Assembly (NCBI RefSeq): GCF_001562255.1
Contig: NZ_CP014301.1
Location: forward strand, 372,001-436,000
Length of the DNA stretch: 64,000 nucleotides
Reading direction: 5' to 3'
From: Bosea sp. PAMC 26642
Lineage (GTDB): Bacteria > Pseudomonadota > Alphaproteobacteria > Rhizobiales > Beijerinckiaceae
Shown: positions 41,884 to 60,200 of the stretch, one piece after another
Position numbering within the stretch: position 1 is the stretch's first letter
How the letters are laid out: every line of letters begins with the position of its first letter
The notes under the pieces: generated by a model
Database searches by the model: none
Told to the model about the DNA's origin: nothing
What the model saw: only the letters and a program-made list of their open reading frames with translations
Made by a program: the position numbers and the translations under genes

Positions 41884-41914
41884 GAAGGTTCGCAAGTCTA
41901 CGCAAAAGCGTGGC

Positions 41915-41946
41915 GTCATTCCGGGCGGAGCGAAGCGGAGACCCGG
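41915..41946. repeat. GTCATTCCGG palindrome, copy 6, left fragment (split by the IS110 element)
   Basis: GTCATTCCGGGCGGAGCGAA continues to ACCCGG at 41946, where the repeat stops abruptly. Its continuation (AATCCATGCC...) is found 1.1 kb away at 43065. Joining the two parts rebuilds a complete palindrome with matching arms. Confidence 0.9.
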
Positions 41947-41970
41947 CAACTGTGTCGTTGCGCATCCTGA

Positions 41971-42899
41971 TCATGGCTGGAAGGCTGTGTTTGTCTTGAT
42001 CATGGCGTTGAGGATTGTGAGGAGTTTTCTGGCGACGGCGATCAGGGCGACTTTTGCTGCGGCACTTCGTTCGAGGATGGCGTCGTAGAAGGCCTTGAAG
42101 CGCTGGCAGGTTCGCTTGGCTGCCAGTGCCGCCATGTAGAGGGCGCTCCGGACGCGGCTGCGCCCGCCCCTGATGCTGCGCTTGCCGCGGTGGCGGCCGC
42201 TGTCGTTGTTGAAGGGGGCCAGCCCCGCCAAGGCTGCTATCGCCTTTGGCGAGACATGTCCGAGTTCTGGCATCAGCGCGATCAGGGTGGTTGCGGTGAC
42301 GTGTCCGACGCCCGGCGCCGAACGCAACAGAGCCTGTGTGCGGGCCAGGGCCTCGTTTGCGCACAAGGCATCGCTGATGAGGCGCTCGAGCGTGTCGATC
42401 TCGTCGTCGAGCCAGGCAAGATGGCGCGCCAGGCTGCCGCCTTGGTCCTGTCCCTCGCTGAGACGGACGCGCTCGGCGGCACGGATCGCGACGAGCTGGT
42501 CGCGGCGTTTGTGCAGTTGGGCCAAAGCGTTGCGAGCGGGCTCGACAGGTGCGTCGGGTTCCAGCGCGAGGCTGCGGGCCATGGCGGCGAGCATGCGGGC
42601 GTCGATCGCATCGGTCTTGGCCAGGCGCCCCGTGGCGCGGGCGAAGTCACGCGCGCGCGCCGGATTGAGGCGCACGAAACGCAAGCCGGCCTGTTCCAGC
42701 GCACGGCGCAGGGTTGCATCGTAGGGGCCGGTGGCCTCGAAGGCGATGAGGCTACCGGCCGGATCGGCCAGCCCCGACAGCCAGGCCGCGATGGCCGGGC
42801 TCGTATTGGCGATACGAAGACTTGTGCCACTCGCCTCATCGAACAGGTCGAGATGGTGTTTGCGATATCGCATCCGATGAAGCAGGGGTGTATGATCAT
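41971..42899 (-). pseudogene. IS110-family DEDD recombinase, frameshifted near the N-terminus
   Basis: The expected protein starts at 42899 with MIIHPCFIGCDIA, carrying the first catalytic Asp of the DEDD RuvC-like domain. It should continue KHHLDLFDEASGTSLRIANT, but that part is in another frame. One base is missing at about 42861/42862. After the shift the frame is open to 41971 and includes EATGPYDATLRRAL, KTDAIDARMLA with further catalytic acids and, in the Tnp20 part, SAPGVGHVTATTLIALMPEL and the Ser-containing APFNNDSGRHRGKR. A start at 42873 or 42933 would make a protein without the first Asp. It could be a decayed gene, a sequencing error or programmed frameshifting; decay is simplest. 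Confidence 0.85.
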
Positions 42900-42902
42900 G
42901 GG

Positions 42903-43040
42903 GCCTGTCCCTGTGCTGCGAGGTCCGGTGCAAGCGGCCTCGGTCAACTGTTCAGGATGGGGTCTTGGAACGCGGGCGGGAGCCTGGCCGGGTCACGGTG
43001 TTTGCCACCAGGAATCCAACGGCTTCCCGCCCGCACAAAT
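42903..43040 (-). ncRNA. Predicted bridge RNA of the IS110 element
   Basis: The DNA upstream of the recombinase, read on the minus strand, folds into two internal loops in series. Loop 1 (43034-42972): a stem GCGGGCGGGA/TCCCGCCCGC extended by GCC/GGC encloses an internal loop capped by GGTG-GCAAA-CACC. Its 5' side contains TGGATTCC, identical to the left half of the target; its 3' side contains GACCCGG, the complement of the right half (CCGGGTC). Loop 2 (about 42959-42903) is capped by CGAGG/CCTCG. Its 5' side contains ACAGTTG, identical to the element's right end; its 3' side contains CACAGG, the complement of core plus left end (CCTGTG). This is the target-then-donor loop order and strand logic described for IS621. 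The RNA ends are guesses. Confidence 0.75.
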
Positions 43041-43064
43041 CATGACACAGATCAAACACACAGG

Positions 43065-43136
43065 AATCCATGCCTGAGCCTAGATTGGCGTTCCGGCATG
43101 GATTCCGGGTCTTCGCTGCGCCGCGCCCGGAATGAC
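43065..43136. repeat. GTCATTCCGG palindrome, copy 6, right fragment
   Basis: It starts AATCCATGCCTGAGCC, holds the inverted GGCATGGATTCCGGGTC and ends GCGCCCGGAATGAC. Together with 41915-41946 it forms one complete palindrome. The right arm still carries an intact TGGATTCCGGGTC target at 43099-43111. Confidence 0.9.
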
Positions 43137-43267
43137 GGCGCTCGGTTGTCGAGCCGACGCAATGCGTCATGCCCGTCTTGGTAGCTGACGCCGCCGCCAA
43201 GCCTTGTCATGATGGCGCCACCTGAATCGGCTCTCAGGCGATGAGAGCCCAGCCTGTGCCGAGTGCC

Positions 43268-57203: not shown

Positions 57204-60200
57204 TGGCCACGCTTCTTCTCCAGGTCGCCGGCGCCACGATCGGGACGGCGCTGGGCGGGCCGATCGGCGGCGCGATCGGGCAGGCGCTCGGCGGCATCGC
57301 CGGCAGCCGGATCGACCAGGCCCTTCTCGGCGGCGAGGGCGGCAGCCGCGCCGTCGAGGGGCCGCGCCTGAAGGAGATCGGCGGGCTTGCCTCGACCGAG
57401 GGCGCAGCCGTCCCGCGCCTCTACGGCCGGGCGCGGCTCGGCGGCCAGTTGATCTGGGCGACGCGCTTCGAGGAGGAGATCAAGGTCACCGTCTCGCGCA
57501 CGAAATCCGGCGGCAAGGGCGGGCGCTCGCAGAAGACGACCGAGACCACCTACAGCTACTACGCCAATCTCGCGATCGGGCTGTGCGAGGGGCCGATCGC
57601 CTTCGTGCGCCGGATCTGGGCCGATGGCCGCGAGATCGATGTCGCGACGATCGCCATGCGTGTTCATCACGGCCATGAGAGCCAGGAGCACGACCCATTG
57701 ATCGCGGCCAAGGAAGCGGGCGCGGCGCCGGCCTATCGCGGCCTCGCCTATGTCGTGTTCGAGCGCTTTTCGCTCGGCGACTATGGCAATCGCGTACCGC
57801 AATTCTCCTTCGAGGTGGTGCGGGCCGTCGAGGGGCTCGGCGGCATGATCCGGGCCGGGACCCTGATCCCGGGCGCCGGCGAGTTCATCTACGAGACGCG
57901 CGCCGTCAGCCACGAGCCGGAACCCGGCGTCACCGCCAGCCAGACCCGCCACCAGCTCTATGGCGGTGCCGATGTCGATACCGCGCTCGGACATCTGATG
58001 GAGCTCTGCCCGGCGCTGCGTCGCATCTCGCTCGTCGTCTCCTGGTTCGGCGACGATCTGCGCGCCGGGCATTGCACGCTCGCGCCGCGCGTCGAGATCC
58101 CGCACAAGCCGACCATCGGCGCGGAATGGTCCGCCGCCGGACTGTCGCGCGCCACGGCCCTTATCGTCAGCCAGGTCGACGGCCGTCCGGCCTTCGGCGG
58201 CACGCCCTCCGACGAGAGCGTGATCGCGCTGATCCGGCGCCTGCGCGATGCCTATGGGCTGGAGGTCGTGCTCTATCCCTTCGTTATGATGGACATCCCG
58301 ACTGGCAACGGCCTCATCGACCCCCAGACCGGGCTCGCCGGACAGCCGGCCTATCCCTGGCGCGGCCGCATCACCTGCAACCCCGCGCCTGATGCCGAGG
58401 GCAGCGCGGCGGCCGATGCGCAGATCGCCGCCTTCATCGGCACAGTTGCGCCAGCGGACATGGCGCTTGCAGGCGAACAGATCCTCTGCGCCAAGCCGGA
58501 CGAATGGAGCTATCGCCGCCTCGTCATGCACGCCGCGATGCTGGCTCAGGCGGCAGGCGGCGTCCACGGCTTCGTCCTGGGCTCGGAGCTGATCGGCCTG
58601 ACGCATGTGAGAGGCGAGGCCGGCTATCCCATGGTCGACGGGCTGGTCGATCTGGCTCAGGACGTGCGGACGCTGCTGCCCGACACTAAGCTGACCTATG
58701 CCGCCGACTGGACGGAGTATGGCGCCGATGTCCGCGATGACGGCGACGACATCCGCTTTCCGCTCGATCCGCTCTGGGCCTCGCCCGCCATCGACGCGAT
58801 CGGCATCGACTGGTATCCGCCGCTTTCGGACTGGCGCGACGGCGGCGGCCATGCCGATGCCGCGATCGCCGGCGGACCGGCCGATCTCGCCTATCTGCGG
58901 TCGCGCCTGAATTCGGGCGAGGCCTATGACTGGTATTATGACGATGCTGACGGACGCCTCGCGCAGGACCGGCTGCCGATCGAGGATGGGGCCTACGACA
59001 AGCCCTGGATCTTCCGCCCCAAGGACCTCGTGAACTGGTGGAGCCAGCCGCATGTCGAGCGCGCGGGGGGCGTCGAGACCACAGCCACCTCATTCGTGCC
59101 CGGCGCCAAGCCGATCTGGCTGACCGAGATCGGGCTGCCGGCGATCGACAAGGGCGGCAATGCCCCAAACGCCTTCGTCGATCCGAAATCGGCCGAGGAC
59201 GCCTGGCCGCATTTCTCCAGTGGCGCGCGCGACGATCTGGTGCAGGCGCGCGGGCTGGAGGCTATCATCTCCGGTTTCGATCCGGCGCGCGCGGGCTTCG
59301 ACCCGGCCCGCAACCCGGTTCATCCCGTCACCGGCATCCGCATGGTCGATCCCGCCGGCATCTTCGTCTGGACCTGGGATGCCAGGCCGTTCCCGGCCTT
59401 CCCCGATCTCAACGCGATCTGGGCCGACGGCGCCAATTACGACACCGGGCACTGGATCAACGGACGCATCGAGGGCACGCCTGTCGACCGCCTGCTGCGC
59501 GCCATCCTCGCCGATTTCGGCCTGCCGGCGCCCGACGAGGTAACGCTGGACGGCTTCGTCGATGGCTATGTGATCGAGCGCCCGATGTCGGCGCGCCAGG
59601 CGCTCGACTCGCTGGCGCAGGCCTTCGGTTTCGATGCGACGATGAGCGCTGGCCGGCTCGTCTTTCGCGGCCGGGGCGGCAAGGTTGTGCGCGCGCTCGG
59701 CCTCGACGATCTGCTGCTCGATCGCGAGGGGCGCCCCTACGAACTGCGCCGCGCCCAGGAAAGCGAATTGCCGCGCGAGCTGCGGCTCTCCTTCAGCGAT
59801 GGCGACGGCGACTATCGCGCGGCGGCCGCGCGCTCGCGCCGGCTCGCGGGCGCCGCCCGTCGAGAGATCGGTGTCGAGACCGCGATCGTGACGCGCCCGG
59901 CCGAGGGTCAAAGGCTGGCCGACCAGCGCCTGCAGGAGGTCTGGGCCGGCCGCGAGACGCTGGAACTCGACCTGTCGCCACGCTGCATCGACCTCGAACC
60001 CGGCGATGTCGTCTCGCTCGCGATCGACGGCAGCGATCGGCTGTTCCGCCTGACCCGGATCAGCGACGGGCCGAGCCGCAAGGCGAGCGCGCGGGCCGTC
60101 GAGCCGGCGATCTACCGGACGGCAGGGGCACGTGGGCCGGCCCGCATCCCGCGCGCCGCTCCGGCATTGCCCGGCCGCCCGATGGTCGTGCCGCTGTCCC

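Follow-up and report, generated by a model that had tools for sequence, protein, structure and literature searches.

The left end of an IS110-group element of Bosea sp. PAMC 26642 very probably encodes a bridge RNA that guides recombination as in IS621, a reading to which we assign a probability of about 0.93. We base this on the order of the four guides, the 70 target copies in the genome, a conserved RNA structure, the joint change of guide and target, the match of the donor guides to the element's own ends and the kinship of the recombinase. An earlier note on the window (the whole 64,000-nucleotide stretch of DNA analysed here) had proposed this reading of the left end, and it gained support from the anatomy of the RNA, its conserved structure, the complementarity of the guides to target and donor, and their co-change, all at the level of sequence.

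In the proposed mechanism, the first loop would read the target, with an 8-nt left guide addressing the bottom strand and a 7-nt right guide the top strand (the CC core is part of each), and the second loop would read the joined ends of the circular element. The DEDD recombinase, presumably in complex with the RNA, would then exchange strands at CC, so that the element comes to lie in one arm of a REP palindrome of the genome. Transcription of the RNA would probably start from a promoter formed across the circle junction.

All four guide strings were located on the minus strand in the order given by the earlier note (Table 1). The target loop carries TGGATTCC and GACCCGG on its two sides, with a strong closing stem and the cap GGTGGCAAACACC, and these guides match the interrupted REP target in its two halves and its CC core, on opposite strands. 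The second loop presents ACAGTTG and CACAGG on opposite sides, each of which matches the element's own ends in sequence, as had been claimed. We generated 300,000 first-order random sequences with the dinucleotides of the left end, in which the ordered target pair (within 35 nt) occurred 11 times, the ordered donor pair (within 50 nt) 98 times and both pairs together never.

Table 1 Positions in the window of the element, its putative bridge RNA and its target.
Feature	Position	Strand	Remarks
Putative bridge RNA gene	42900..43035	-	match of covariance model R1, 151.2 bits; window sequence is among the 15 rows of R1
Left target guide TGGATTCC	43011..43018	-	final two letters pair core
Right target guide GACCCGG	42988..42994	-	final two letters pair core
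Left donor guide ACAGTTG	42945..42951	-	equals right end beside core; invariant in 15/15 aligned left ends
Right donor guide CACAGG	42910..42915	-	complement of core and left tip
GA after right donor guide	42908..42909	-	possible handshake guide for target positions 7-6; concept from part of PMC11208158
Target hairpin	42972..43034	-	outer stem 43034-43025 with 42981-42972; apical hairpin 43009-42997
Donor hairpin	42904..42956	-	outer stem CCTG 42956-42953 with CAGG 42907-42904; inner stem around 42943-42919
IS110-group element	41945..43064	-	CC core at both ends; from comparison with second and third copies
Left junction core	43064-43063	-	part of the element
Right junction core	41946-41945	-	part of the element
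Left half of target, ATGGATT	43065..43071	-	adjoins core
Right half of target REP, GGGTCTCCGCTTCGCTCCGCCCGGAATGACG	41914..41944	-	from comparison with second copy
Neighbouring REP palindrome	43098..43139	+	opposite orientation; unoccupied copy of same target type
CATGAT, possible -10 box	43039..43044	-	by eye; promoter would be completed by TTGCCT when ends join in circle
Recombinase gene	41971..42899	-	starts at ATG 42899; frame breaks about 13 codons in, directly behind GCDIA motif

The borders of the element follow from two further copies in the same genome. The second copy (L004/L086), on the same chromosome, differs from the window copy by 5 substitutions from ATGGATTCC through CCGGAATGACG and is unlike it outside; at the junctions the identity runs from ATGGATTCC followed by TGTGTG to ACACAGTTG, CC and GGGTCTCCGCTTCGCTCCGCCCGGAATGACG. 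The third copy (L001/L092) is 97% identical and is inserted in the same REP half. The letters common to both junctions of the element are exactly CC. Comparison of the flanks of the three copies beyond 60 bp revealed no mutual similarity, and we therefore regard them as separate insertions. There are 70 occurrences of the rebuilt target TGGATTCCGGGTC in the genome and 0 of its reversed control, in agreement with the earlier description of the target as an abundant palindromic repeat. At 43065-43139 of the window the occupied REP has an inverted REP as its partner, and L092 shows a similar pairing with a like spacer; the elements at these two sites therefore sit in composite REP units. The same genome also holds a different IS110-family gene (L002, G000:C1:864588-865001) with an open frame of 416 aa, in which model R1 found no match up to E 1.

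If the first loop addresses the target, its letters should change with the insertion site, and this was found. We tabulated 32 insertions in 13 guide classes, after dropping duplicates of one locus listed under several numbers, and shuffled the guides among classes in 20,000 rounds; elements found later (L132, L135-L138, L140, L141, L144, L145, L154 and L155) stand outside this test, L136 and L138 among them having been inspected only. All six non-core letters of the left guide matched in 26 of the 31 insertions with a left flank, the exceptions being L035 and L105, which match at 5 positions, and L009, L013 and L107, which match at 3 (in L013 and L107 the core lies inside a C run and was scored in the less favourable register). 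For the right guide, all five non-core letters matched in 8 of the 23 insertions with a right flank, or in 14 when G-U pairs were allowed. The mean match was 5.3/6 on the left, as against 3.5 after shuffling, and 4.2/5 on the right, as against 2.8, and no shuffle attained the observed fit on either side, with or without G-U pairs (0/20,000 each). These insertions are related by descent and the counts are not independent events. A set of 25 more distant elements, chosen by their R1 match, gave a left-guide fit of 4.5/7 non-core letters against 2.4 shuffled (again 0/20,000) in the 22 elements where a rule set the start of the left end, the rule having skipped L030, L044 and L124. The predicted variation of loop 1 with the insertion site is thus borne out for each half across the 13 classes.

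The same data bear on the idea that REP recognition lies with the recombinase itself, in which case the target letters of the left end would be relics of past insertions or chance matches. Both target halves do occur in the genome as REPs, which would provide a source for such relics. Nevertheless, each of the 15 aligned left ends carries the halves at identical places in the loop and on the strands that the bridge model requires, the halves change with the flank, and the rate at which the ordered target pair arises by chance (11/300,000) also speaks against this idea, which we consider highly improbable.

The earlier note had asked whether the same loops might be found at unrelated targets. 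For the most part they are not, as guides fit their sites, the poor fits being those of L009 and L160. L009 is one of five copies in Labrys okinawensis and its site fits neither guide well (3/6 and 3/5), which may reflect an off-target insertion. In G058, a core letter of the guide is changed in both L135 and L144; the left flank fits in L144 and fits poorly in L135. Another Labrys okinawensis element (L008, 1248-1351) has its left end tandemly duplicated from the core to the left guide, over 52 nt. GTGCACCC, found at the ends of the repeat, represents the target letters of the flank and of the guide itself, and thus the RNA gene contains half of its own target; self-recombination or slippage could have caused the duplication.

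Within the genus, a single base of the left guide follows a single base of the landing site. The left guide TGGATTCC, present in the three copies of this genome and in two G051 copies, goes with the flank ATGGATTCC in 5/5 cases, and TGGATCCC, present in six G048, two G063, six G003 and two G064 copies, goes with ATGGATCCC in 16/16. The T/C change in the guide therefore agrees with the REP form, T or C, at each of the 21 insertions scored, a count which also took in L132, L140, L141, L137, L145 and L154 and whose copies are related by descent, so that they do not represent 21 separate events. Both REP forms were present in all 13 genomes counted, with T/C counts of 141/140 in G000, 62/189 in G051, 67/205 in G048, 46/122 in G063 and 39/362 in G003; the T form occurs only once in G031, and G064 was outside the count. 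The left-end sequences of the G003 copies are shared with Bosea lathyri contigs. A truncated remnant in G048 (L155, 1501-1553) ends within the target hairpin, where REP-like sequence is joined to it, and its guide and flank are both of the C form.

We also looked outside the model set, at 6 plasmid records among the 15 matches listed of 1,246, and all six contained an R1 match. Four S. medicae copies carry the left guide CGGAATCC, and by eye their flanks match 6, 5, 5 and 4 of 6 letters, the copy with two mismatches being L160. The left guide of an Agrobacterium copy matches 6/6 by eye, and that of a Sphingomonas copy is a C run and uninformative. The right guides match 3, 3, 3 and 1 of 5 letters in S. 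medicae and 3/5 in Agrobacterium (by eye), so that the right-side match in this plasmid set is weaker evidence. The right end of the Agrobacterium copy is one letter off its left donor guide.

On the donor side, 36 copies were examined and 35 scored, L007 being without a donor loop. The right donor guide pairs the core and left tip at 6/6 positions in 26 copies, at 5/6 in 8 and at 3/6 in one (L092). Together with the seven letters of the left donor guide, these counts indicate that the donor guides can pair the joined ends of the element itself, and, as expected in the earlier note, they hardly change among copies. Full core pairing on the donor side was not supported. Behind the left donor guide stand the two letters AC in 22 of the 35 copies, AT in 8 and CA in 5, where the core is CC, and the guide pairs the whole core in 0/35; in the window copy, ACAGTTG is followed by AC. 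In the IS621 structure, according to the available part of PMC11208158, only the first core base is paired by the left donor guide. The letters that follow the right donor guide could pair target position 7 in 34/34 copies (8 by wobble) and position 6 in 27/34, and they are GA except in two Hoeflea copies, where AT fits their target. They resemble the handshake guides that this part of PMC11208158 describes for IS621, by an analogy that is weak because only two states are seen.

The RNA structure was assessed on an alignment of 15 left ends from elements whose recombinases are about 51-100% identical. The named structure, from which RNAalifold pairs within the guide loops were excluded, consists of two hairpins with internal loops, target first and donor second; it is formed in 97.8% of the cells of the alignment, and only 34-44% are paired when it is slid by 1-3 columns. 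Eight pairs have changed on both sides, a number reached by 1/500 shuffles, and 7 of the 8 lie in the target hairpin, the remaining one being among the 12 pairs of the donor hairpin. Counting further pair types in the same 15 rows gave 14, no excess over shuffles (mean 15.7). The target hairpin folds strongly, with a z of -4.75 (0/200 shuffles as good); for the 179-nt left end as a whole the advantage over shuffles is only modest (z -2.17, 5/200 as good). Because the donor hairpin folded alone is no more stable than shuffles (z -0.69, 44/200 as good), the case for it comes mainly from near-invariance together with one covarying pair. The minimum-energy fold of the 179-nt left end was set aside in favour of the comparative structure, as it pairs guide letters. 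In an Alphaproteobacteria metagenome-assembled genome (HGW-Alphaproteobacteria-3), L007 has an internal deletion in its left end which removed most of the donor loop and kept the target loop.

The covariance model R1 has matches in 10 of 67 genomes of the genus. Of 43 sources, the window and 30 others match up to E 0.001, a number in which some loci or elements are represented more than once; the remaining 12, which include fragments and L002, lack a match at that threshold. The model locates the same RNA ahead of recombinases that are only about 40% identical. The covariance-model check proposed earlier thus yielded both loops in close relatives, in the alignment and in the R1 matches. Two weak hits of R1 in the window, one at 59249-59338 (E 0.11) and one opposite the same stem on the plus strand (E 0.019), were attributed to chance. 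Rfam 15 at the gathering score had 0 matches in the window.

The R1 match ends at the recombinase start codon, and the order of target loop, donor loop and gene agrees with the earlier note. The right donor guide and the end of its stem lie within 16 nt of this codon. This proximity would suit a structured left end that acts only as a leader or small RNA controlling recombinase expression, and the ISPpu9 transposase is regulated by small RNAs according to the available part of PMC8450116. Such a role leaves the co-change of guide and insertion site unexplained and is, on its own, very unlikely to be the answer; as a regulatory side role it is compatible with the bridge RNA reading. With regard to expression, the joined ends would read TTGCCT, 17 nt, CATGAT by eye, which would put the RNA start close to where the target stem begins, and in IS621 a promoter is reported to form across the joined ends in the circle (PMC11208160, available part). 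A promoter scan, which covered the linear form only, found none.

PF01548 and PF02371 (the DEDD recombinase) scored over the cut-off in the window frame and in L092, and the protein is related to the IS621 and ISCro4 proteins of solved structure. The 320-aa frame used in the searches is a frameshifted reading from an upstream TTG start, which lacks the first 23 positions of PF01548 and the GCDIAK motif. We take this motif to hold the first Asp of the DEDD set. The break in the frame, a point missed in the earlier note, is common to the window copy and L086. Open frames of 305-311 codons are present in L092 and in 14 further copies. A programmed frameshift was considered for the window copy; 15 of 17 translated copies have plain open frames. 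As the recombinase gene of the window copy is frameshifted, this copy would probably move only in trans. In addition, the last base of the right donor guide is changed in L086, and the left tip of L092 is 1 nt shorter. Judged by sequence, none of the three genome copies looks fully intact, and the protein of L092 with the RNA and ends of the window copy would make a full set.

These defects raise the alternative of a genuine bridge RNA in a lineage that is dying out, its copies in this genome being no longer mobile. The frameshifts in the window copy and L086, the changed donor guide base in the latter and the 3/6 fit of the left tip in L092 would be expected of such a lineage. On the other hand, the gene of L092 is open, and copies could make up for one another's defects in protein, RNA and ends; furthermore, the frameshift is common to two separate insertions, a sign that copies already carrying it may have moved in trans. 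The shared frameshift could also stem from gene conversion or from independent loss. We regard such a loss of mobility in this genome as possible but rather doubtful. Somewhat closer to an even bet, and still tentative, is the view that the bridge RNA belongs to a distinct clade, with a CC core, no 5' stem-loop and a left donor guide uncoupled from the core. In this clade, one left-guide base would re-address the element between two REP forms found side by side in the same genomes, and copies with a broken recombinase may still be spreading because their ends are served in trans by intact copies.

The near-identical elements of the genus, whose left guide and landing site differ by the same base, form a natural guide-swap series, and as both site types coexist in the same genomes the specificity at target position 7 is directly testable. 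A joint search of the literature for Bosea and IS110 found none, subscription journals being mostly outside its coverage. According to the available parts of the papers cited here, insertion of IS110 elements in REPs, co-change of guide and target, and natural re-direction are already in print (PMC11208160, PMC11208158, PMC11187229, PMC1525189).

As far as those parts describe them, several systems can be compared with the window element. ISRm19, ISPpu9, ISPpu10 and ISPa11 are likewise IS110 elements in REPs, ISRm19 in an alphaproteobacterium, the likeness being one of insertion sites only (PMC1525189). In the seekRNA elements ISEc21 and IS1111, an RNA from a long non-coding end also sets the target, and natural re-direction between relatives has been described; in contrast to the window element, the RNA lies downstream of the gene in the IS1111 type, and a shorter RNA suffices in ISEc21 (PMC11187229). 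IS621 shares the position of the RNA in the left end before a DEDD recombinase, the target loop followed by the donor loop, a left guide for the bottom strand and a right guide for the top strand with a shared core, REP targets, C-G-U before the left guide and possibly the handshake letters (PMC11208160, PMC11208158). It differs in its core, which is CT in IS621 and CC here, and in the left donor guide, which in relatives of the window element is followed by AC, AT or CA and not by the full core. A further difference is the distance from core to target stem, which at about 27 nt would leave little room for a 5' stem-loop; it is 27 nt in the window copy against 44-47 nt in 20/22 distant elements. 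Apart from core pairing by the left donor guide, the features tested fit an IS110-group bridge RNA system with clade-specific differences, and a CC-core recombinase with a possibly shorter RNA would be a possible addition to the programmable set.
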